A DNA stretch of 64,000 nt from Desmodesmus armatus (Eukaryota; Chlorophyta; Chlorophyceae; Sphaeropleales; Scenedesmaceae), in NCBI GenBank assembly GCA_007449985.2, contig VIIQ02000593.1:682001-746000 (forward strand). Direction: 5' to 3'. Of the stretch, positions 7,271-52,100 are shown piece after piece. The notes below the pieces were generated by a model that worked only from the letters and a program-made list of their open reading frames with translations, was not told the origin of the DNA and did not search any database. Numbering within the stretch: position 1 is the first letter of the stretch; each line of letters begins with the position of its first letter. The position numbers and the translations under genes were made by a program.

Positions 7271-7668
7271 GATGTGTTTGGGGCATGGATGTCAGGTCAT
7301 TTGGCCTCCCCTTCCACTTTCATCTGCGTTGATCAGGGGCTGATGGGACATGAACACATCACTACCAGTCATCATCGGAACTGAGGTCGAGAAGAGAAGT
7401 GCGGCACACCCTTCTGCAGGATGGAGCTGAGCAATCCTCTCCTGATGGACGCATTGGCAGGCATCACCTGGTCAAACCCTCAAAACTCAAAAAGAACAGG
7501 TGCCTTGCCGTTGCTCCCAAATGAAGCTCCATCATCATTCCCGATACATTTTACCATGATTCAAAACTGCTCGTGTCGCACTTGCTGTCAGTGTTGTTGT
7601 GAGGGCGTTGTTGCTTCTGCTGCTGCTGCAATGCACACCTGTGACTGCTTCAGCTGGAGCCCATTTCC

Positions 7669-10600
7669 ATGCTGAACAACATGTCAAACATACCAGCAAC
7701 GAACCTCTTAGATGACTACCTGCGTGCAACAGCTACTGGCCAGCAGTGCTGTGAGCAGGCCGTGCACTGCAGTCAAGTCCCAGCACAGACTGCGTTCTTG
7801 CATAACCAGGTATTGCAGGGTGTGCACGAAGCCATAGACAGCGCTGTCAGCCGTCAGTCTCCTGATATTACACACCTCAGCATTGGCCAACCACGTGGCA
7901 CAGCAGCAGCGGCCAGGGCATGGTCTCCAGCACCATCGAAGCGTGAGCCCAGCAGTGACAGCAGCCAGCCAGCAACCACACCCAGGGGCATATTTAGGGC
8001 CATGCGGCAAGCAGATGCTGCAGCGTTGTACACCGAGCAGCTATCGGCAGAGCAGCAGCATGAGCCTGGCGCGCTCAGCAGGCTGCACCACCTGCAGCAG
8101 CTGCACAGCGACCCTGTCTTTGCTGGGACAGACTCGCTGGCATCAGAAGTGCGGCTTCTGGCAGACCACGCAGAAAGATCTTCAAAGCTGCTGAGACTGC
8201 AGCAAGACATGGAGATCAAAAGCTACCGCCAGAAGCTGCTGAACACCCTGCAGCAACCGTCAGCATTGTTTGATGGGCACAACCAGCCCAGCCAGCAGCA
8301 ACAGCACGCAGGGCAGCTGCCGCAAACATGCGCAGACGGCATGCCGCGCTGCAGCAGTGCTGTCATGTGGCAGCACAGCAGCAGCAGGATGGCGCAGCCC
8401 GAGCCACGGCCCTGCACTGCTCCCAAGCCACACACCCAGCACAGCGCTGTGGCAGTGCACAGCAATCCCGCCAGGCCTGCCACTGCTGGCAGCTCTGGTG
8501 CTGCAGCCTTGTATGCTGGCGGTCTGCACAGCGGCCTGAAGCAGCACCAGCAGCAGCACCGGCAGCAACCTGCCATGTCAGCAGCAGCAGCGGCAGTGGG
8601 GTACGACAGCAGCAGCGCAGGAGGGTTGCTGGCTGCTACGGCACCCCCAGAACTGCAGCACCTCAAAATCCTGGCAAGCCTGGAGCTACCCTGGAAGCCA
8701 CCAGCTGCAACGACAGCCAGACCTGGATTAGGTAGGGCTCTGGGCTCTGAAGGGTTCAAGGCGTGCTCAGCACACCAGCAGCAGCAACACCATCAGCAGC
8801 AGCAGCGTGCGGTGCCGGCAACGCCAGGCAGCATGTACAACAGCGACGCAGGCCAGCGCCTGTTCCTGCAGACAGACCACCAGCAGCAGCAGCAGGAGTG
8901 CTGCAGTGTGCCTCGCCCGGCCTCTGCAGTGGCTGCACTGCAGCAGAGCCTTGGCGAGCTGGCCAAGCTCAAGGCAAAGTACAGCCAGCTGCAGGACCAG
9001 CAGGAGCAGCAGCAGCAGCTGCTGCGCATGCAACAGGAGCAGCGGTGGCAGCAGCAGCAGGAGGCGGACGCGGAGCGGCGCGCAGCCAAGGCGCGCAGAG
9101 ACACCCGGCTACAAGCAGAGGCTGACCTGCAGCTGCTGCAGCAGGAGCACCGCACACACACGCTGCACGCAGCTGGCAGTGCTGCGCAGTGCGACAGGCC
9201 TGCTGCGGGGTGCGGTGGCAGCAGCAACAGGGCTTGTGCGTGGGCGGACCAGGATACCGCGGGTGGGCTTGGGCCGCGGCTAGGTTCCACGCGCCAGCAG
9301 CCGCGTGATGTCGATGGCCGAGTGCCGTATGCTCGTTGGGACTCCTGGCAGCAGCAGGTGCATGGGCAGCAGCAGCAGGAGTTTGGAGCAGGGTCCTTGT
9401 TTGGTGCTGCTGCTGGTGGTGGTGGGGTGGACCGCCCGCTGGGCAGCTTGGGCAGGCAGCAAGCGGCACAAAATGCAATGCGCAGGTCGCAGTCAGCCCC
9501 TCGACTCCACAGGGCTTGGGATGCCATGCCCTTTGAGTCACTACACCAGCACAGCAACCACCCAGCAGAAAGGGGGCTAGGCCTGGGGTACAGGAGCAGA
9601 AGCCCTGGTGCACGCATGCCCCAGCAGGGGCATCTGGGTGCCAGCTGGGAGGACGGCATGTGGCAGCTGCGCCAGCAGCAGCGGTCAACGCTGCAGGAGC
9701 TGCAGAGACCGAAGACTGCTGCTGCCTGTGTGGGGTTGCGAGGGGTTGCAGGGGTAGGGCTCGGCGCCAACGCAGCAGGGACCCGCACAGCAGCAGCAGC
9801 AGCGGCCGCAGAAGCAGCAGCAGCCACCGGGAGCTGTGGTGTCAGGGATGGGGCCTTTTCTGGGTGGCTGAGCAGCAGTCCCCTGATGAAGTACACAGCA
9901 GGGCTGCGGGGGACACAGAGCAGTGCAGCAGCAGCTGCGCCGACTGGCAGGCTTGGCAGGGGGACGTCAGTGCACACGGTGACAGGGGCACAGGCCACTC
10001 GCAGCAGCTTGAACGGCAGGCCCCAGAGCATCGGTGCCAGTGCTGCTGCTGCAACAGCAGGCAGCTGGCTGCCGGCTGGCAGCAGTGCTGCTGCTGGAGG
10101 TGGTGCATCAGTGGGGCAATCTCACCAGCAGCGGCTGCAAGGAACGTTTGTTGTAGGGGCCAGCAGCCTGAACCAAACGACAACAGCACCCAGGAGTGCA
10201 GCAGCTGCGCACCACTCTTGGCTGCCACAGGAGAAGGGGCCAGGGCAGGTGCCAGTGGGGGCCTGCAAGGCCGCACTCCTGGCCAGCAGAGCTGCAGGCG
10301 CTGCTGGTGTTGGGGGCATTAGTGGGGGGTGGGGCAGGGGCGATGCAGGAGCAGCAAGCACTGGGCGTGTGCATGCCGCTACGACAGCAGCAGCGGGTGG
10401 TGGCAGTGGGGTTGGTACGTCAGCACTGAGGCAGGAGCTGGTGCAACGGGCCCTCCACGGCTACAAGCCGCATCAGGTGGGTGCTGCTGATGGGCAGCGG
10501 ACGCCTTGCGTACGCACGTTGATTGAAACCTTTGCTCAACACTCATGATGATGTTGCTGTGGCTGCATGAGGGGCATGCATGAGTACTGTCGCTGCTGCT

Positions 10601-39040: not shown

Positions 39041-39683
39041 TCAGTGCAGCAGGTCCCAGCCATGCATGGGGTGCAACTGCTTGAGGTCTGTGTCGAAGCA
39101 GAATGGCTCTATGTTGAGCTCCAGGGCTGACACAGGGTGCTCAACACCAAAAGCTGCTAGGACCTCGGGGTGCACGATGCCAAACACACCCACCTGCAGG
39201 ATACACACAGACACAGACACACACAGAGACATGTAACCGAGAACATTGATTGATGTTCACTGTGTGGTCTTTTCGTAGGGCAGGGGGGGGGGGGGTCAAA
39301 CACATATACGGCGGTTGGACTCTAGCTCATTGCTTACATGTAGCAGACAAGAGGCAGACACATGCAGGTACCAGCCAGTAGAAGTCAACACACTGTGACA
39401 CAGAAGACTCAGCCGTTTTGTCTGCCTTACAGAGAGGCAAACCAAACTCAGGAGCAGCCATCAACACAAGTGCGTGCCTCACCTCCTGCCCCCGTGCTGT
39501 GATGCTGGCCTGCCGCCCCTCAAAGAAGCTTGGGTGGCTGCTGGGTGTCCAGCTGTAGCCGCCACCCAGCCGCTGCTCTAGGGAGGGGTTGCTACCTGAA
39601 GGATGGATGGAAGGATGGCAGGCAGGCAGGCAGGCAGACAGACAGACAGGCAGGCAGACAGACAGACAGACAGACAGGCAGGC

Positions 39684-39724
<41 letters not shown>

Positions 39725-39731
39725 GGCAGGC

Positions 39732-39800
<69 letters not shown>

Positions 39801-42800
39801 GGCAACGACAAAAGCACAGGCACATCAGTCACGGGTGAGTGTGACTACTCTGGTGTGAGTGTGAGAATGAACCCCATGTGTACCAGCTACCGACGTGGGT
39901 GATGAATGCCCAACACTAAATTCATGCGGATCAAGCAGAGGCCACGCCAAACACCCATTTCAACTGCAGGCCCCACTACCTCAAACACACCCCCATTCAC
40001 ACCCATGTACCCACCTGTGTATGGGATACCCAGCACCTGCATCACACGGTTGAGCAGGCCGTGCACGACTTCAAACCCCCCTCAAACCCCCGCCCCCCAC
40101 ACACACATCCACAGCCATACACCCACCTGTATAGGGGATGCCCAGCACCTGCATCACTCTGTTGAGCAGGCCGTGCACGACATCAAACTCGCTGGTCTTC
40201 CCGCATGTCACCGCCAGCAGCCGCCGCTCGTTGCGTGCGCCCACGTCCCTGCTGCTGTCCAGGAGCACCACGTCACTCAACTCAAACAGACGCAGCGGCA
40301 GCGGCTCACCCTTGTTGGCAGCAAGAGTCTTGAGGGCACTGGGCAGCAGCGTGGTGCGACACACCTGCAGCAGCAGAGGTGGACACAGTGTGTGTGCTGT
40401 GCTGTGCTGTGAAAGGCACATGCTGCCTTGCACCCATGCTGTGACTGCGTGATATCTCTGACGCGCTGGAGCTTGTAAGCTCCAACAATCCATGTGTTTT
40501 ACACAAAGAGATAGGTTTGTCGGCTGAAGGCTGCCCATGTCACCCCGTCACCGGTGCTCCAATATATGATCCATGGCCCTGTATGTGTGTGGTTCATCCA
40601 GTGCTGCACATGGTTACGCCATAGCACCCCACAATCATCTGTTTCACACCCGATACCAGTCCCCCTGTCCACATTCACACTGTGCCCAATGCACACGGGG
40701 TAGGCCTGCTTGTGTGCCTCTCAATGTCAACAACATGTTGACACACCTGTGCCCCACATCCTTACACCCACCTCAAACTCAGCTGCTTGTGGGTTGCCCA
40801 CTGCCACAGCTGCAAGCTATCCACACCTGTCCCCCCTCCCAGTGCACACTCACACTCACACGCACACACACCTATGCCTCAATCCACACTCGTATCCGCT
40901 GGATACAACTCACACTTTCGATACCCTCACACCCACCTCAAACTCTGCCGTTTGTGGGTTGCCCACCGCCACTGCCGCACTGCCTGGTGTAGGCTCAGGG
41001 TTGCGCATGTTGTCAAAGTTCTCCGCACGCGAGCAGAGGGCCCAGGTGAGCACCTCGGTGTACCCGGCCAGTGCAACCTCCTGCCGCAGCAGCTCACTCA
41101 GCTGGTTGAGGGGCAGCTCACGACCCTGGGTCACGGTGCTGGGGATCTGTGGTGGAGGATTAGGCAGCCGGGGGGGGGGGCATGAGTGAGTGACAAGCAC
41201 AGCAGCTAAGGGGGTAGCTGACAATTGTGGGTCTCAGTGCTGGGGATCTGTGTGTCTGTGTGTTTTGTTTGTTTGTTGAGGGCGGGGGGCGTGAGTCAGT
41301 GACATGAACAGCAGCTCACTCAGCTGGTTGAGGGGTAGCTCACGACCCTGGGGCACAGTGCTGGGGATCTGGGGGGGGGGTAGGGGGTGGGGGTGGTGGG
41401 TGAGGCAGGGGAGGGCATAGGTCAGAGACATGTGCAGCAGCTCACTCCAGCTGTTTAGGGGGTAGCTCACGACCCTGGGTCACAGTGCTGGGGATCGGGG
41501 GGGGGGGGGGGGGGTGTGGGATGTGGCAGGCGGGCAGGGGGGGGGGGGGCATGAGTCAGGGACAGCAGAGCACTCAGCTGGTTGAGCGGCAGCTCACGAC
41601 CGTGGGTCACGGTGCTGGGGATCTGTGTGTTTGTGTGGGGGGTGGGGGGGGGTGGGGGGGAGCAGGGGGGGGGGGGAGTCAGTGACAAGGGTGGGTGCAG
41701 GCAGGCAGGCAACGGGGGGGGGGGGGGGGGGAGTGATAAGCGCAGCAGCTTGCTCAGCTGTTTACAGGGTAGCTCACGACCCTGAGTCACAGTGTTGGGG
41801 ATCTGGGGGTGTGCTTGGGGGGGGGGGGGCTCGAGTGGACATCTCTGTGTAATCATGAGTGGTGTGGTGTGTGTGTGTGTGTGTGGGGGGGGGGGGGTCA
41901 CAGGACGACCCATCTGCTGTTCTTTGTCATCCTTCAAGCGGTACAAGAGGTTGACCCAGCACAATCTGATGCTAGCTGAAACGCCCTCCCATACCCCCAC
42001 CAATCTGTTGCTGCAGGTTGTTGTAGCCGTAAGTAATAGCCACATCCTCCACTCAACCCCTTGCCGTCAACATGTTGCTGCTTCTTGCCCGCACCAACCT
42101 GCATCCTGAACTTTGAATGTTGCTTGCGCCATGTACCCCAACTCCCTAACACCCCTCGACAACCCCCAACGGTCACTACCCCCCTCCCCCCCCAAAACCC
42201 GTAAGCTAGTGCCCCCCCCCCCTACCAACCTGTTGCTGCAGGTTGTTGTAGCCGTAAGCAATAGCCACATCCTCCACTCAAGTCTCAACCTCGACATGTT
42301 GCTGCTTCTTGCCCGCACCAACCTGCATCCTGAACTTTGAATGTTGCTTGCGCCATGTACCCCAACTCCCTAACACCCCTCAACAACCCCCAACGGTCAC
42401 TACCCCCCCCCCCCACCAACCTGTTGCTGCAGGTTGTTGTAGCCGTAAGCAATGGCCACATCCTCCATAACATCACAGGCATGGAGGATGTCACTGCGTG
42501 TGGCCGGCACCCGCACATTCAGCACCACATCGCTGCTGCTGCTGCTGCTGCTGCTTGGCTCCTGCTGCTGTGTGGTGACCTCTAGCTGCATGCTGTTGAG
42601 CAGCTTGGCCACTGCTGGGGCGTCCAGGGACAGGCCTAGGCTGCTGTTGATGTAGGAGAGGGGCACCTCAAACTCACGGGGGGTCAGGTCGGGGTATACT
42701 GCGGGGTGGATGATGGTGACAGCGGGGGGGGGGGGGGGGCAGGGTTGGTCCAGTGTGTTTGTGTCTGGGTTGGGGGCGGGGGGTGGGGGGTCCAGGGAAA

Positions 42801-45800
42801 GGCCGATGCTGCTGTTAATGTAGGAGAGGGGCACCTCAAACTGACGGGGGGTCAAGTCGGGGTAGACTGGATGCGAAGGAAAGGAAAGCAGAGTGGTGAT
42901 GGAGAGGGGGCAGGGGTGAAGGGGTGGGGAGGGGCCAGTCACGTGTGGGAGCAGGAGAGGTGAGAGAATGTGTGGGTGCATCTTGAGTGGGTGGGTGGGT
43001 GGGGCATACATCGACAGGCTGCTGCTGCTGCTGATAGAATCAAGGGGCACCTCAAACTGACAAGAGGGTTAGGATATACTGTGGGGTGCAGCGTGGCAGG
43101 GGCAGGTCCTGCCTCGGGGCAGACGGGGCCAATGTCAGCGGGTCCTTGGGGGGCTGTGTGTAGGGGGGGAGATAGAATCAACCCGTTGGTGCTGTGAGTC
43201 TGTGCCATCCTGTCTCACCGTGGCTCTCTCCAAAGCTGTCGATGACCTCCACCGCCCTCCCCCCATCACGTGGCTCGCTCCTCCCCCCCCCCCCAAAAAC
43301 CACACATAACCACCACCACCACCAAACCCCTAGCCCACAACCCTGTGCGACACTGTCTCACCGTGGCTCTCCCCGAAGCTGTCGATGACCTCCTCTGCCC
43401 TCCACCCACCACGTGGCTCGCTCTTCCCCCCCCCCCCCCCATCACACAGACACCACGACCACCACCACCACCACCACCAAAACACCAAACCCCAAAGCTC
43501 TAGCCCATAAATTTGTGCGACACTGTCTCACCATGGCTCTCCCCGAAGCTGTCGATGACCTCCACTGGTTCCACCTCAAAGGGCACCGCACAGTACTCAC
43601 TGAACATCGTCACAACTGCAGGGACGCACCAAGGGGGGGGGGGGGGGGACAGCACGGTCAGCACACAGCACGGTACATCATGTGACTGACACGATCCGCT
43701 GTGCTGCGCTCCTCCACGCTCCTAAAATGCTTGACCACACAGTGCTGACTGCACATTGTCACAATACAACTTCAGCAGCCATGGCACTCCAACCCCACTG
43801 TGCTGTTTCATCTGAGCAGGGGTATGTTGAAGAAACCTGCGAGAATAGTGTGTAATGATGAGGGGTCCGTTGCCTTGCGCACCTGTGTTGAGCACCACCT
43901 TTGCCTTTGTGAGGTCTGTGGCTGTGCACTCAATGAACACATCACGCGTGGACAGGGAGATCTGCAGCAAGGGCAACCGGAACATGCACTCACACTCACA
44001 TTTGGTGGCGTACAATATTTGATAGCCTACACACACATTGCATGCCTGCATGCTCACTCCTGTGTGCAGCATTGCTCAGTTGGTCCCTTGCCCCCCCCCC
44101 CTTCATGACAGCCAGACCAGGCTCAACCCCATGCAAAACACAACCTCAGCAGCTGTGGCACACCCAGAAAGGTGTGTTTGTGAAATGTCCAACATGACCT
44201 TGCTACAGGTGGCAGTGAACCCCTCAATTGAGCAACATACACTGGATGTCAAGTGGCATATAATGGCTGTGAGGCTTTGTGGACCATCTCATGCCATCGG
44301 AAGCACCCTTCCTGCAGTCCCCCCCCCCCATACACACACACATCCGCCCTCCTGTCGGCCCCTCTCGCCGCAGTGGCTGCTCCGTTCCTGATGGGCGGCA
44401 GGGACAGCATCCCCAAAAAATGAAATAATATAACATTAATAAAGATATTATATTTATATTATATTTATTTTCACATTTTTTAAAACGTCGCTATCAAAAC
44501 CGACCAACTGCCATGCCCCTGTAGCACAACCAGGCCCCCAATACACTTTGTATGCATCCAACCCTGCAGCCGACACCACTCCCTCCCACCCCTCCCTCCA
44601 TCCCTTTGTCGCGCCTCTCTCACCGCTGTGGCTGCTCCGTTCCTGATGGATGGCAGTGACAGCAGTCCTTAATGAATCCGACTGACTGCCGTGCCGCAGT
44701 AGCACACCCAGACCGTAACCACCCTCCACACCTTCCAAACTCAGCAGCTACCGCCCGTCCCTCGCTTCAAGCCTCCCTCTGACCTTCACTCCCCCTCCAC
44801 CCACAACACTCACCGCAGTAGCTGCCCCGTTGATGATTGGTGGCAGTGACAGCAGTGTCCTGTCAGCGTCGTATATGGCTGGGTACACCAGGCTGTCCTT
44901 GATCAGGGGAACAAACCGCTTAAGCTTCTGGTCGTTGGCCAGGTAGTGCTGCAGGGGGGGGGGGGGACAGCAGAAGGGACAGCAAAGTGCTGTTGCATAA
45001 CGTTGAGGGTTGAAGCAGCAGTAGCAAGGGCTCAGGGTTCAGCTTCAGCTGCTGAATGTGATCAGAAGGGGGTCAGCGTCAACACCAAAACTACTGTCAC
45101 ACGCGTCAAGGGTTGAACGGGCCATCCCCTTCCCCCCCAGCCGGCGGCCCCACACACCCCGATTAGTCGCACCCTGCTCGTACAACGCCCCCCCTTCTCC
45201 TCCATGAGTTCGTCTGCCCTGACCCGCTCCTGCTTGAGTGGCACGACTTTCATCTCAACATGGGGGCACCTTCCTCATCCCCCCCCCCCCCCACGGTCGG
45301 GGCCTCCTTCTCCCCACCCAACCACATCAAACACTTCCGACAAGTTCCTCTACTCTTGCAACAAACTCGACCTCCGCTCCTCCCCCCCCCCTTTGCATCC
45401 TGCCTCCCCCCCCCCTTCCCCCAACCCCCCCCCCCCCCTCACCTCCATGAGCTCATCTGCCCTGAAGGTCCGCTCCTGCTTGAGTGGCACGAAGCTTATC
45501 TCACTGGGGGGCAGCGCCTCGTAGGTGAAGGGACCACGACACTTGGCCAAGTCGTGGGTGCCAATCGCAACAAGGGAGCGCTGACGACACAGGTTCTGGT
45601 GCAGCTTGTCCTGTGGTTACAAAGTGAAGGGGGGAGGTCCAAAAGGATAAGTGCCGTACAGGACTACAGAATCACAGAGTGGACCTGCATGGAAGGGAGG
45701 TGGTAGTGGTGATGGTGGTGGTGGTGGTGGGGGGGGGGAGCGGCACTTGGCCAGGTCGTGGGTGCCAATCGCTACCAGGGAGCGCTGACGACACAAGTTC

Positions 45801-48167
45801 TGGTGCAGCTTGTCCTGCATTAGCATGTTGGGGGGGGGGGGGCGGCGTGTGCAGGCACGAGATGTGTGATGTCTGCTGGGGGGTGGGGTACAAAAAAGGG
45901 TACAAAAAAGGCATAGATAAGGTTGTACTGGACACGATCACCACGTGCCTGCATACACTTGGCATCTCTTCTCAACCCTTACACACATTCTCTATCTACA
46001 CACCACTCAGTTCACTCAGCCCATGTCATGTCTGCATGGCTGTGTGTGTCACAGTGTCTCACCTGCAGGTCAATGAAGCTGTTGTAGCGTGAGGGGTCCA
46101 GTGTGACTCCCCTCAGCACTGCTGCAACAACGTAGGGACGGATCAGCGCAGTCTCTGGACGGACCACCAGCTGCTGAAGGGCCTTGCCTGTTGGAGGGAA
46201 CAACAACACGGACAGCAAAACAAGCACCAGCAGCAGCAGCAGTACAGCAGCGGCGGCAGCAGCAGCAATCACGAAACCCGTAAGCATACGGAGTCTGGCC
46301 CGTGATTGACAGGCCTATGGACCGCGCAGCGCGCTCGGTGAACTGTCTGCCCTAAGACAACTTCACGTTAAACAAGCATTGTTGATGCTCCACACAAGCA
46401 GGACGGGACATAGGCTTTGCTGTCGGTGTGAATCTTTGTACATGCTGAGACCGCTTGAAAGCCCCCGACCCCCCCCTCCGCCCCCCACCCCGCCCAAAGC
46501 TACCCCCCCCCGGGTGTTCGCCAAGAGCATCAGCACCTGGCCCAAGACTGCCCCAAAGCGCCCCCCACCCTTCCTCACCGCATGTCTGCCAGCTTGTATG
46601 TGGGTGCTGGTGTGCGCCCCTTGAATATGTTGAATGTATGGCTGGTGTAAGCCCCTTGAATACGATGGCGCAAGCGATGCCGTCCAGGCACCCCCCCCCC
46701 CAAAACCCACGCACATTTGCTTTCTTTACTGCCCTCCTGGGCTGCCATGGCTGGCAGCGATGATCTCAACCCACCACACCCGTGTCCTGAACACACCCCC
46801 CCCCCCCGCCCCAATCCCTCACCGCGCATGTCTGCCAGCCTGTATGTAGGTGCTGGTGTGCGCCCCTTGAATATGTTGAGGGCGCGTGCAATGCCCTCCA
46901 GGCACAGCATGTCGTATCTGTTGGCAGGGATGTCGATCTTGTAGATTACATCCTCACTCACACCCGACAGCGCTGCGTGGTCGTCAACACCTGACAGCTC
47001 CTTGCGAGCCATCTCACGCTCTGAGGTCTGTAGATGTGTACGGCAAAGGGGTGGTGGGGTGGGGTGGGGTGGGGGTGGGGTGGTGGTGGTGGTGGGGGGG
47101 GGGGGAGGACAAACCCAAGAGTCAGTAAGAGTGGGGTCAGGTAAGGGGTTGATGTCAATCATTTAGATCAAGTGCTTGCTGACGCCCGACAGCGCTGCAT
47201 GGTGCTCAACTCCTGACAACTCCTTACGAGCCATCTCACGCTCCGACGTCAGGTTGGTGGTGGTTGGGGGGGGGGGGGGGTGTTCGGGAGGAAGAGCAAT
47301 TGTGGGGGGTGAGTGGGGCCACTTGAGCCGGCTGAAACCCGTGGGTGGAATTGCATTGCTGCCGCTCAACTGCTGCAGAAAGGGCGCCTACTGCACATGA
47401 CCACCCTTCTGCCCATCTGCTTGCCTTGCGATTCTGTGGATCACCAGCGGACCGAATTCACTCTCGTTGACTGGCCGTACATGCTGCATGTCACGAAGTC
47501 GCGCATCCAGCGCAGCAGCCAGGACGGGGGTGCTGTTTTCAGTCTGCTGCTGGGTGATGCGGTGCCTTCAGTGCTGACCTGCTGCCGGCCTTGTGCTGAG
47601 CACCATACTAGGCAGCTGCAGGTGGTGGTGGTGGTGCACCTCCCTGAGTTGCCCTGCTACTGCCGTCACAACTGCTTGCCCCCTCTCGCAAACCCCATCG
47701 AACCCCTCCTGCACTCCCGTGAGCAACACCCCTTCCTACCTTCTTGCTGCACCCTATCCCTTCGCTCTCCTGCTCGCCTCCCTTCTCTCACTCTGCCATA
47801 CTGGCACTCATTCTTACGCCCCCCGCTCCCGTCCCTGCCCCCCCCCCCCCCGGGGCCCCGTCCCTGCCCCCGCCCATGTTAACGGGAGTCAACACACGCA
47901 CTCACCACGTCATCCAGTTCAATGCCGTACTCGAAGCACAGGTGATCAAACTCCTCATCAGCTGCGGCATAAAAACAGTCCCAGTGAGTCACTATCATCA
48001 TATCTGCTGCTGTCCCCTGGCCAGGGGGTTGGGCTACCAACAGGTGTGTGCTGCTGCTGCCATAGCTACAGCCCACACAGCAGAGCAGCAGAGCGTGCAA
48101 AGCACGTACTGTATGTGCGTCCAAGAGCCTCAAACAGCTGATCACGCTGCACTCCGACGATGGGCAT
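39041..48167 (-). CDS. FARSB: Cytosolic phenylalanyl-tRNA synthetase beta subunit, 13 exons
   Basis: Beta chain of the alpha2-beta2 enzyme that charges tRNA-Phe in the cytosol. Minus-strand exons: 48167-48110, 47961-47906, 47027-46823, 46187-46063, 45610-45443, 44948-44814, 43961-43883, 43615-43532, 42698-42421, 41146-40937, 40364-40127, 39595-39483, 39193-39041. They sum to 1902 nt (633 aa), all GT..AG and in phase. Family segments in order: [57 protein letters not shown] (B3/4), [88 protein letters not shown] (B5), [41 protein letters not shown] and [16 protein letters not shown]. It has eukaryotic/archaeal-type architecture with a Ser-rich insertion before PATRSD and a C-terminal extension of about 17 aa. 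Almost every intron carries exon echoes (see findings). Confidence 0.97.
39601..39804. repeat. (GACA)n/(GGCA)n microsatellite in a PheRS intron
   Basis: About 200 bp of GACA units with interspersed GGCA units in the intron between PheRS exons 39595-39483 and 40364-40127. It opens with a few GGAT units and its acceptor-side end lies within 10 bp of the exon start at 39595. Confidence 0.97.
41147..42420. repeat. PheRS intron built from exon-end echoes
   Basis: This intron holds four or more degenerate copies of the 5' end of the downstream exon (encoding [20 protein letters not shown]) near 41240-41260, 41310-41370, 41440-41495, 41565-41625 and 41750-41805. It also holds two copies of the 3' end of the upstream exon (encoding [15 protein letters not shown]) near 42005-42045 and 42226-42275. 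Each copy is next to a poly-G or poly-C run. Confidence 0.9.
42699..43531. repeat. PheRS intron with two classes of exon echo
   Basis: Copies of the start of exon 42698-42421 ([20 protein letters not shown]) occur near 42795-42870 and 43010-43085. Copies of the end of exon 43615-43532 ([10 protein letters not shown] plus donor) occur near 43212-43262 and 43357-43402. Poly-G and poly-C runs separate them. Confidence 0.88.
45611..46062. repeat. PheRS intron with decoy exon copy and acceptor
   Basis: On the minus strand, 45820-45740 repeats the first 25 codons of the next exon ([24 protein letters not shown]) almost exactly, including an AG acceptor (ATGCAG). It then runs into poly-C and breaks the frame, so it cannot replace the true exon at 45610-45443. 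Confidence 0.9.
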
Positions 48168-49144: not shown

Positions 49145-52100
49145 TCAAGATCGCAGCTTTCGTGCATGTGGTAGAGCTTGAGGGTCTCTCCATAGCCGCC
49201 AGCAACGGTCAGCTGCTGCTGCTGGACAGTGTGACAAGGGAGGTTGAGGAGGTGGGGGTGGTGCCTGGCGGCATTGCTGCTGCTGGCTGGAGCCCCAATG
49301 GGGAGCAGCTGGCGGTGCTGGACTATAACGGACTGCTGCTGATTATGAACAAGGTACGCCCGGCCGGTCACGATTGGATGCTCCTTTTGTTGGCTATGTA
49401 CGATTCTGATTCTCCTGGTTGGTATATACTCGTGCTGCATTGAGTGCACATGCAGAGTATGATTAGTGGAGGACTCTTCAGCTTGCAAGCACTGCAGTAA
49501 TGTAGTGACAGGCTGTTGCTGCTGAACTGTATTGCGGCGCGGCTGGCTATGCTGGGGTATGCTATACGGTATATCAATCCCTTACTTGCCGTGGGTTGCC
49601 TGCCTGCAGGATTGGGATGTGTTGACACAGGTGGCAGTCCCACCCCCTCAGCAGGACCAGCAGCAGCAGCAGCAGCAGTTGCTGTCTGCCACCCTGACAT
49701 GGCGGGGTGACAGCAACTACCTTGCAACCAACACACTCTGGGGCAGCAGCAGCGACGGCGACAATGACAGCAGCAGCAGCAGCAGCAGCAGTAGGGTGCT
49801 CCACTCATGGGACCGAGAGTCCGGGGGCTTGCATGCCACAGGTCAAGCAGCAGCAGGCCTGTCAGCAGCAGTAGCTTGGCAGCCCAACTGCAGGCACCTC
49901 TTTGCTGCTGCTGCCCTGCCGCCACCCGCCCCAGCAGCAGCAGCAGCAGCAGTAGGGTCACAGCAGCAGCAGCTGCTGCGGGCAGCACCCACCAGCGGGT
50001 GGTCTCTGCTGCCAAGACGGCACCGGCGGCTGCTGCCACTGCTGCCGGCGGCTCACAGCAGCAGCAGCAGCAGCCAGACAGCAGCTGGCAGCAGCACATC
50101 ATTCTGTATGAGCGGAATGGGCTGCAGCATGGGGGCTTTGATGTGCCGACAGCCTCCGACAGCAGCAGCAGCAGCAGCAGCAGCAGCGGTAGTGCTATGG
50201 TGATCCACAGCTTGCATTGGAGCAGTGACTCTCGCCTGCTGGCGGTGGTGTTAGCACCTGAAGCAGCACTGCAGCAGCAGCAGCAGCAGCAGGGCTGTGA
50301 GGGAGTGGTGCCTCATGAGTGGCGGTTGCAGGTGAGTTACAGCCCTGCAGCTTGTGGGTTTCAGGCAAGGGTGTGTGTGTGGGGGGGGGGGGGGGGGGGG
50401 GTCAGCACCTCACACCGTGTGATGGGGTTGCACAGGGGGGGGGGGGTGTCCAATGGTGTGCAGCAGGAGTCACAGTGACGAAAGCAGCAGGTGCTGCGTT
50501 CGCGTTGGCGTCTGCAAATGTATTCCATTCATGTCTGCATCACACGAGGATGTTCACACGCATGTGTGTGTTCATGTGCTGCTGTATGTGCTGCTGCGTA
50601 TGCTGCTGCAGCTGTGGTGTCGCAGCAACTGGCATTGGCACCTGAAGCACGAGCAGCGGCACGAACTGCCAGATGTGTCAGGTGTGCTCCAGGGGTGGGA
50701 AAGGGGGGGTATGGAAGGGGGCAGGCGGCAGGGGCAAACGGGAGAGGTGTCGGTAGGGGTGCCAGAAAGGGTGTGTGTAGACACAGGGAGTGCATCCAGC
50801 CACTGCATCAACCATCTCACCATCCAAGGATCTCCAAACTCCGAACTTTGGTATAAGTGCGTGGTATAAGTGCGTGATAGGGGTGCGGAGGCCATACATT
50901 GGGGGAGAGGGGCAGGGGCAAACAGCAGAGGGGCCGGTAGGGGCATCAAGGGAGGGTATGCATGTTAAGGGTTCAGAGGCAAAGAGTGAGGTGGAGGAGG
51001 GTGGAGGGTTGGGTGGGGTTGTAGGAGGGTGAAAGGTGGCATGGCCTTGGTGGGCATGTCTGAGGTTGAGGCCTTGTTTCCACCAGGATAGTCATGCAAC
51101 AGCGTGCATTGTTGTGTGACGGGGACTGCAGGGACATTTTTGAATGTTGAAAAGGCTTGAAAAGGCTTGAGAGTCCTCTGATGGTCAAAATATGAGTGTC
51201 CATTCAGAGTCCTCTGATGGTCAAAATATGAGTGTCCATCCTGGTCCATTGGTGGATTGCGTCGATGTTGCAAAGGGGCTGATGTGTGTTTGCTGGTGCT
51301 GCAGGCCGCCTGATGGTGTGTTGGGATGAGACACTCCCCTCACGGCTACACCTCATGTCAGGTGAGACAGCAGCAGCAGCAATGGCAGCAATGGCTACGG
51401 CGGCAGCAGCAGCAGCAGCAGCGGCGGCTATGGCTATGGCTGCGGCAGCAGCAGCAGCAGCAGCACTGCGCACATAGGTGCTGTGTGGTCTGCGGGCGGT
51501 GCTTGGCATGTAAAGCCAACAAATCGAGCTGTGCTGAATGCTCGCCATTCCATATGCGTCTGTGTTGTCCTCTGTTTGCTTCACGCTGTCGTGTGCTGTG
51601 TGTTGCTATGCTGTCAGGTGTTGGCCGCTACAGCCGTTTGGACTTTGGTTGGTGCCTGTGTGTGAGCGGGCGGGGCACTGCTGCAGTGATTGACGGCCAC
51701 CAAGTGCTGCTCACTCCACTGAGGTAAGGGAAAGGTTCACAAGGTGCAACAGCTGTTGCAGCATATGTATGTGGGATGCTGTGTTGGTGTGTGTGTGTGT
51801 GGGGGGGGGGGGGCACGGTGTGTGTGGGGCAGGGAGCATCCAGGGGTCAGGGAACCGTTTCACAAACCTTCAACACACATGCACACACAATTCTGGAGGT
51901 TTGTTTGGCGATTGGAAGGGGCCCAATGGCGGTGGTGTAACCCTTTGCCAGGACTTGCTGCAGGGTCCTGCCTGTGCAACACTCGTTTTACTTGCCTGCG
52001 TACAAGACTTGCTGTGCCGTGCTGTGGTGTGCTGTGCCTGCAGGCATGGTCTGGTGCCCCCTCCCATGTGTGCGGTGCGTGCCCTCCTCCCTCGCCCCGC

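Follow-up and report, generated by a model that had tools for sequence, protein, structure and literature searches.

Differences in intron length are an open question, usually answered by transposons or drift. The window analysed here, a stretch of 64,000 nucleotides from the green alga Desmodesmus armatus, raises this question through one gene, whose introns had been described as largely built from degenerate copies of the exon ends that border them. These copies, hereafter called echoes, were examined for their number, their origin, their fate and their share in intron length, both in this gene and in a sample of other genes.

The gene encodes the phenylalanyl-tRNA synthetase beta subunit (PheRS beta). 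Its 13 exons are bordered by GT and AG; joined, they give a single open frame of 633 codons plus stop, with the four Pfam domains expected of this subunit (B1, B3/4, B5 and CLM). The closest named proteins are those of Scenedesmus sp. NREL 46B-D3 (81%) and Tetradesmus obliquus (82%), and two further proteins match at 89%, which places the host in Scenedesmaceae or near it. In the alignment with four relatives (P0001-P0004), all 12 exon junctions were free of gaps, and therefore no echo is part of the conserved coding sequence. Judged by the gene model, open over 633 amino acids, and by the proteins of the relatives, no additional intron would be needed.

39041..48167, minus strand: PheRS beta gene (open frame, GT-AG borders, Pfam domains, gapless junctions against four relatives)
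48167-48110, 47961-47906, 47027-46823, 46187-46063, 45610-45443, 44948-44814, 43961-43883, minus strand: PheRS beta exons 1-7
43615-43532, 42698-42421, 41146-40937, 40364-40127, 39595-39483, 39193-39041, minus strand: PheRS beta exons 8-13

The assembly searched has 831 contigs with a total of 115.8 Mb. Published values for T. obliquus are 108 Mb, 57% GC, a mean intron of 462 bp and 7.8 introns per gene (PMC5966456). Intron 11 of PheRS holds a long simple CTGT/CCTG repeat (window 39620-39800), and dozens of similar arrays are found elsewhere in the genome. A stretch within a 155-aa open frame (G000 C21:145573-145806) has 54% identity to PheRS residues 119-196 and is perhaps a distant paralogue or a broken copy. 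A second match to PheRS, on contig C759, was rejected as low-complexity. Elsewhere in the window, long open frames at 7645-10548 and 49526-50478 encode glutamine-, alanine- and serine-rich stretches.

Self-comparison of the PheRS gene on the coding strand gave 28 local direct repeat pairs, nearly all of them matching an exon end or its echo to the adjoining intron. The preliminary description had counted exon-end copies in at least eight of the twelve introns; self-comparison found them in nine, with 20 echo copies in total, and recovered the positions first given for echoes of exons 3, 5 and 6 and of the ends of exons 10 and 11, as well as the multiple echoes first listed for exons 8 and 9 and the start of exon 10. 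The presence of exon-end echoes in these introns is thereby confirmed. Of the 24 exon ends, 21 passed the filters, and 11 of these testable ends were echoed.

47151..47250, minus strand: echo of the exon 3 start, intron 2 (81% over 100 bp)
46561..46633, minus strand: echo of the exon 3 end with donor, intron 3 (88%; exon part 49/51)
46631..46691, minus strand: second, more diverged partial echo of the exon 3 end region, abutting the first (78%; 48/57)
45741..45817, minus strand: echo of the exon 5 start with acceptor, intron 4 (94%; 69/74, 5/5 codon differences silent)
45188..45268, minus strand: echo of the exon 5 end, intron 5 (82%)
44619..44666, minus strand: echo 1 of the exon 6 end with donor, intron 6 (85%)
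44364..44409, minus strand: echo 2 of the exon 6 end, intron 6 (83% to the exon, 88% to echo 1)
43343..43397, minus strand: echo 1 of the exon 8 end with donor, intron 8 (unit 170 bp; intron part duplicated too, z 12.6)
43200..43252, minus strand: echo 2 of the exon 8 end, intron 8 (88%)
42784..42869, minus strand: echo 1 of the exon 9 start, intron 8 (91%)
43000..43088, minus strand: echo 2 of the exon 9 start, more diverged, intron 8 (71%)
42219..42276, minus strand: echo 1 of the exon 9 end with donor, intron 9 (tandem unit 191 bp; intron part 95%, z 25)
41994..42051, minus strand: echo 2 of the exon 9 end, intron 9 (95%)
41205..41829, minus strand: five-echo array of the exon 10 start, intron 9 (self-comparison)
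41808-41741, 41627-41563, 41514-41434, 41393-41309, 41262-41205, minus strand: exon 10 start echoes, approximate positions
40760..40814, minus strand: echo of the exon 10 end with donor, intron 10 (87%)
39986..40076, minus strand: echo of the exon 11 end with donor, intron 11 (87% over 91 bp of a 112-bp shift)

The units of the exon 8 end and the exon 9 end are contiguous and head-to-tail, as is, largely, the array of the exon 10 start. A weak additional match to the exon 8 start in intron 7 (24/29) stands under the threshold applied later and outside the 20 copies.

Echoes were then sought by aligning each exon end to its own intron, with low-complexity sequence masked, at a score threshold of 34 (30 in an earlier run). 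The sample comprised 20 helicase-domain loci of 9.9 kb centred on matches, three kinase loci, a 3.2-kb locus (L031), the rest of the window, and L006, a locus with a PheRS fragment that lies outside the unbiased sample since it was found via PheRS. Gene models outside PheRS came from a home-made finder working on sequence alone, and the PheRS exons were curated in the test at threshold 34. The first version of the finder, partly trained on PheRS, placed 12 of the 13 PheRS exons exactly at an intron cost of −10 or stricter and 11 at −8; the self-trained version used later placed 10 of 13 and called some echoes as exons.

At a score of at least 34, 36 of 493 exon ends over all loci matched their own intron: 11/21 in PheRS, 21/364 in the helicase loci, 2/35 in the rest of the window, 2/26 in L006, and none in the kinase loci (0/45) or L031 (0/2). 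Counted by introns, echoes were present in 9/12 for PheRS, 21/219 for the helicase loci, 2/28 for the window rest and 2/15 for L006, with 0/28 in the three kinase loci and 0/2 in L031; 10 of the 20 helicase loci contained no echo at all. In L031 (C759:61800-65000), where neither of the two exon ends matched, a local tandem family adjoining a very long G run was seen by eye. The reverse complement of the exon ends gave no match (0/493), nor did the reversed sequence (0/493) or the other end of the same exon (0/219), and the introns of other loci gave one in 2465 (0.2 per replicate, five replicates). A comparison of own with mismatched exon–intron pairs had been proposed as a check; in the sampled loci it gave 36/493 against 1/2465. 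PheRS taken alone had no match in any control, be it the reverse complement, the reversed sequence, the other end of the same exon (0/8) or the introns of other loci, so its adjoining-end echoes are not due to chance.

At threshold 30, 38 of 432 exon ends matched, with a chance expectation of 0.67; 28 of the 38 ended within 6 bp of the junction, and three of the remaining ten were PheRS ends misplaced by the gene finder. At a score of at least 34, 17 of the 21 helicase-locus matches align to within 20 bp of the junction, while the other four (L015, L022, L029 at 4844, and L030) may be gene-model errors or coding repeats. Echo matches cluster by locus (permutation P = 0.0008, computed without PheRS, L006 and L031). 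PheRS by far exceeds the other loci (11/21 vs 23/444, Fisher P = 1.3e-8). Junction-spanning duplication is at a high level in PheRS, and modest and clustered elsewhere.

The introns were probably lengthened by recurrent local, often tandem, duplication across splice junctions. In the proposed mechanism, a short stretch straddling a junction would be duplicated locally and repeatedly. Each event would carry into the intron a segment of the exon end, of which about 15-96 bp can still be recognised, together with the splice site and part of the adjacent intron. The copy still attached to the rest of the exon would stay in use, and the inner copy would become dead intron and decay without coding constraint while the exon is conserved. 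The molecular step may be replication slippage, template switching or unequal exchange; fixation would be neutral, and splicing, to judge from the sequence, would ignore the echoes.

A tandem unit that crosses the junction predicts that the intron sequence next to the true junction resembles that next to the echo. Such a match, showing that the intron part was duplicated too, was seen at z > 3 in 32 of 57 copy steps, and the distance from copy to copy was 89-257 bp in 53 of the 57. Divergence in those 32 steps was 10.5% in the exon parts vs 17.8% in the intron parts, approximately the 1:2 ratio expected if one exon copy is held and both intron copies drift. Near repeats were direct in 173 cases and inverted in 8. 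The other 25 steps showed no distinct intron match (z of 3 or less), and they include PheRS echoes that are 93-97% identical in the exon part. This combination of a nearly identical exon part and an unmatched intron part speaks against plain tandem duplication, which predicts clear intron similarity. Short templated insertion may explain these young echoes; alternatively, their introns, rich in runs, may have diverged too quickly. Strict tandem duplication across junctions, as originally suggested, is shown for some copies; in several young PheRS echoes, no copy of the intervening intron is recognisable.

One copy had travelled. Part of PheRS exon 10 and its C-rich flank is found inverted, in two or three pieces, on contig C542 (L006 4604-5164), where the pieces adjoin an exon of the crooked-neck (CRNKL1/Clf1) gene whose own end echoes there too. 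Part of this stretch falls past the predicted intron as modelled; the likely cause is an echo that the finder mistook for an exon. Since an inverted PheRS fragment is present in another gene, copying was not always local. No echo family was found genome-wide: besides the gene itself, the best 40 of 214 candidates were only simple repeats and the crooked-neck locus. Repeats of another kind were seen in the sampled loci. A sequence of about 511 bp in a modelled helicase-gene intron (L029 5501-6012) is 98-99% identical at at least 40 other places and looks, by its sequence, like a young mobile element or introner. An element of about 110 bp (L028 3712-3830) matches itself and many genomic places on both strands, and is thus palindromic.

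The fate of the copies was followed at codons where the four relatives agree (21 echo alignments, 405 codons). The PheRS echoes carry 56 amino-acid changes, and no codon had a changed exon beside an echo in the ancestral state. Where the exon has a lineage-specific residue, at four sites spread over three echoes, the echo shares it every time. Thus, the copies are derived and unconstrained, and at least some of them postdate the divergence from the nearest relatives recovered. Changes on the echo branches fall on codon positions 1, 2 and 3 in the ratio 31:34:55 (P = 0.03 and 0.01), a mild third-position excess that is partly to be expected from silent change of the exon between one duplication and the next. 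This excess and the five silent codon differences of the exon 5 start echo had raised the idea of coding constraint on the echoes, which was rejected on the 56 to 0 polarity.

The splice dinucleotide is usually kept, as first noticed in PheRS: over all loci, it is present in 38 of the 45 echoes that align within 3 bp of the junction. If splicing used the echo, 41 of the 45 would bring in a stop or a frameshift, and 38 a stop; echo-free intron starts of equal lengths hold a stop in 176/225, so the echoes are no worse than other introns. The mean splice-site score was 3.69 for echoes vs 6.57 for true sites, being lower in 33 of 45 and equal to or above the true site in 12 of 45.

These data bear on several other explanations. 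It is possible, although on the whole doubtful, that a break or stalled fork in the intron was repaired with a copy of 50-90 bp taken from the exon end close by, after which synthesis returned to the intron; the echo would then be an insertion, not a tandem duplication. Such short templated insertion would suit the young PheRS echoes with unmatched flanking intron (z 0.3-1.6; exon 3 end 96%, exon 5 start 93%, exon 9 start 95%, second exon 8 end 94%), the two abutting exon 3 copies of unlike divergence, and the exon-10 fragment inverted in the crooked-neck gene on another contig. It does not suit the intron part carried along in 32 of 57 steps, the excess of direct over inverted near copies (173 to 8), or the recovery of only one ectopic exon fragment in the genome queries with PheRS (best 40 of 214 candidates). 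Gene conversion between exon and echo could instead have kept old tandem duplicates alive, making exon parts look younger than intron parts; L024, with 98% in the exon part vs 82% in the intron part, and the third-position excess agree with it. This is nevertheless improbable, since drift alone would yield a pooled divergence ratio like the one observed (about 1:1.7), silent exon change between duplications also yields a third-position excess, and repeated conversion would erase the many private amino-acid changes of the PheRS echoes.

A function of the echoes as decoy splice sites, poison exons or parts of regulated splicing is very improbable. The dinucleotide kept in 38/45 and the 12/45 echo sites that score at least as well as the true one would agree with it, but such retention is predicted by modest divergence alone, and both the 56 to 0 amino-acid changes in PheRS and the lower average splice-site scores argue to the contrary. 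Since the locus is rich in homopolymers, an assembly or polishing artefact was also considered; it is extremely unlikely, as the copies differ by a few to about 29% with private changes, and different repeats occur in many genes on different contigs. Finally, the genome does hold young multicopy elements, yet an introner or transposon family is hardly credible as the source, given that each echo matches its own exon and no family appeared among the best 40 of 214 candidates.

Local duplication across junctions thus being the preferred reading, its possible determinants were studied. The copies had been said to lie beside G or C runs, but this did not hold against random placement: 12 of 19 PheRS echoes (the two abutting exon 3 end copies taken as one) are within 40 bp of a run of at least 7, vs 11.9 when placement was randomised in the same introns. 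PheRS introns are unusually run-rich, with 4.57 runs of at least 8 per kb. Across loci, the echo fraction correlated weakly with run density (rho 0.35, P = 0.09; without PheRS and L006, 0.21, P = 0.33). G/C runs as a general cause were rejected on this weak correlation and on the random placement within PheRS. Descriptively, and without the window and L006, G-runs per kb were 0.58 in echo vs 0.26 in echo-free introns, and C-runs 0.17 vs 0.16.

Preference for junctions was evaluated in the 291 introns modelled over the 20 helicase and three kinase loci, where 18 junction families stand against 4 intron-only families. A simulation of random placement with decay and the same detection, assuming uniform ages and simple indels, put the junction share at 0.48; divided by age, it was 0.43 and 0.45 in the two younger thirds and 0.89 in the oldest. 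The probability of at least 18 junction families out of 22 is 0.0012 at a share of 0.48 and 0.027 at 0.60. This hints at a real junction preference, although the result depends on the ages assumed in the simulation and on gene models that are themselves uncertain; the observed share is explicable by decay alone if most families are old. As a speculative and rather unlikely extension, junctions might be the preferred sites of local duplication here, with gene-specific bursts, a process coupled to transcription, splicing or exon chromatin, and occasional copies to other genes, so that duplication at junctions followed by decay, rather than transposons, would be the main determinant of intron length.

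Regarding intron length, the farthest-echo distances sum to 3402 of 7225 PheRS intron bases (47%), which makes the description of the introns as largely built of copies fair by length. After removing the echo distances, the median PheRS intron is 278 bp, vs 288 bp in the sampled genome (228 echo-free introns, window and L006 left out). Outside the window and L006, echo introns are longer, with a median of 464 bp (n = 21) vs 288 bp (n = 228; P = 7e-5). Since the intron segment is co-duplicated in 32 of 57 steps, echo introns are longer and echoes occur in other genes too (21/219 introns in the helicase loci, though 0/28 in the kinase loci), intron lengthening by junction duplication is well supported. 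The accompanying proposal that introns also arise in this way was not: none of 462 exon ends bore the signature of intron birth, which is an upstream exon end at the intron 3' end or a downstream exon start at the intron 5' end.

Intronic minisatellites and other local tandem repeats consist of head-to-tail copies that decay. The echoes resemble them as decaying head-to-tail copies of roughly 70-260 bp, and intron-only and intergenic examples of repeats are present in the same loci as the echoes. Unlike minisatellites, the echo unit includes coding sequence, and the exon is a conserved yardstick for the copies.

Other relatives of the process concern new introns. In intron gain by tandem duplication (the Rogers model), as described for vertebrate ATP2A1, an AGGT segment within an exon is duplicated, and the sequence lying between the two copies turns into a new intron (PMC4974935). 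Both that gain and the echoes involve a short intragenic tandem duplication with splice signals; there, however, a new intron results, whereas here an existing junction is duplicated and the old intron becomes longer. Closer is the potato RdRp gene, where a tandem duplication crossing an intron-exon boundary made a new intron via a cryptic donor (PMC4974935). Its unit, made of the 3' part of an intron, the acceptor and the 5' part of the next exon, is like that of the acceptor-side echoes, and the unit here also spans the exon-intron boundary (intron part z > 3 in 32/57 steps). In contrast to potato, the existing intron here absorbs the extra copy, and it has done so many times over, at donors as well as acceptors and in several genes. 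A study on Drosophila likewise invokes tandem duplication, or intron sliding, for altered exon-intron structure; by its title, it concerns novel intron positions, not lengthening (PMC2891723). Introners (PMC9860276) are dispersed element families that create introns and shape them in some lineages, while echoes match their own gene.

Elements of the process are already known, such as the one junction-crossing duplication in a potato gene (PMC4974935). Within mostly freely accessible literature, searched by titles and abstract beginnings, no report of introns lengthened by exon-end echoes was recognised, and neither the recurrence over many junctions and genes nor the accounting of intron length was found in the same search.

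For annotation, these results are a warning to gene finders, since echoes resemble exons and the finder used here called some of them as such. For the biology of introns, each duplication carries a conserved piece of exon, which is of help in dating the event, and the rates of intron growth by duplication and of decay could become measurable gene by gene within one genome. The junction preference, if true, would indicate a mutational process linked to the way genes are built.
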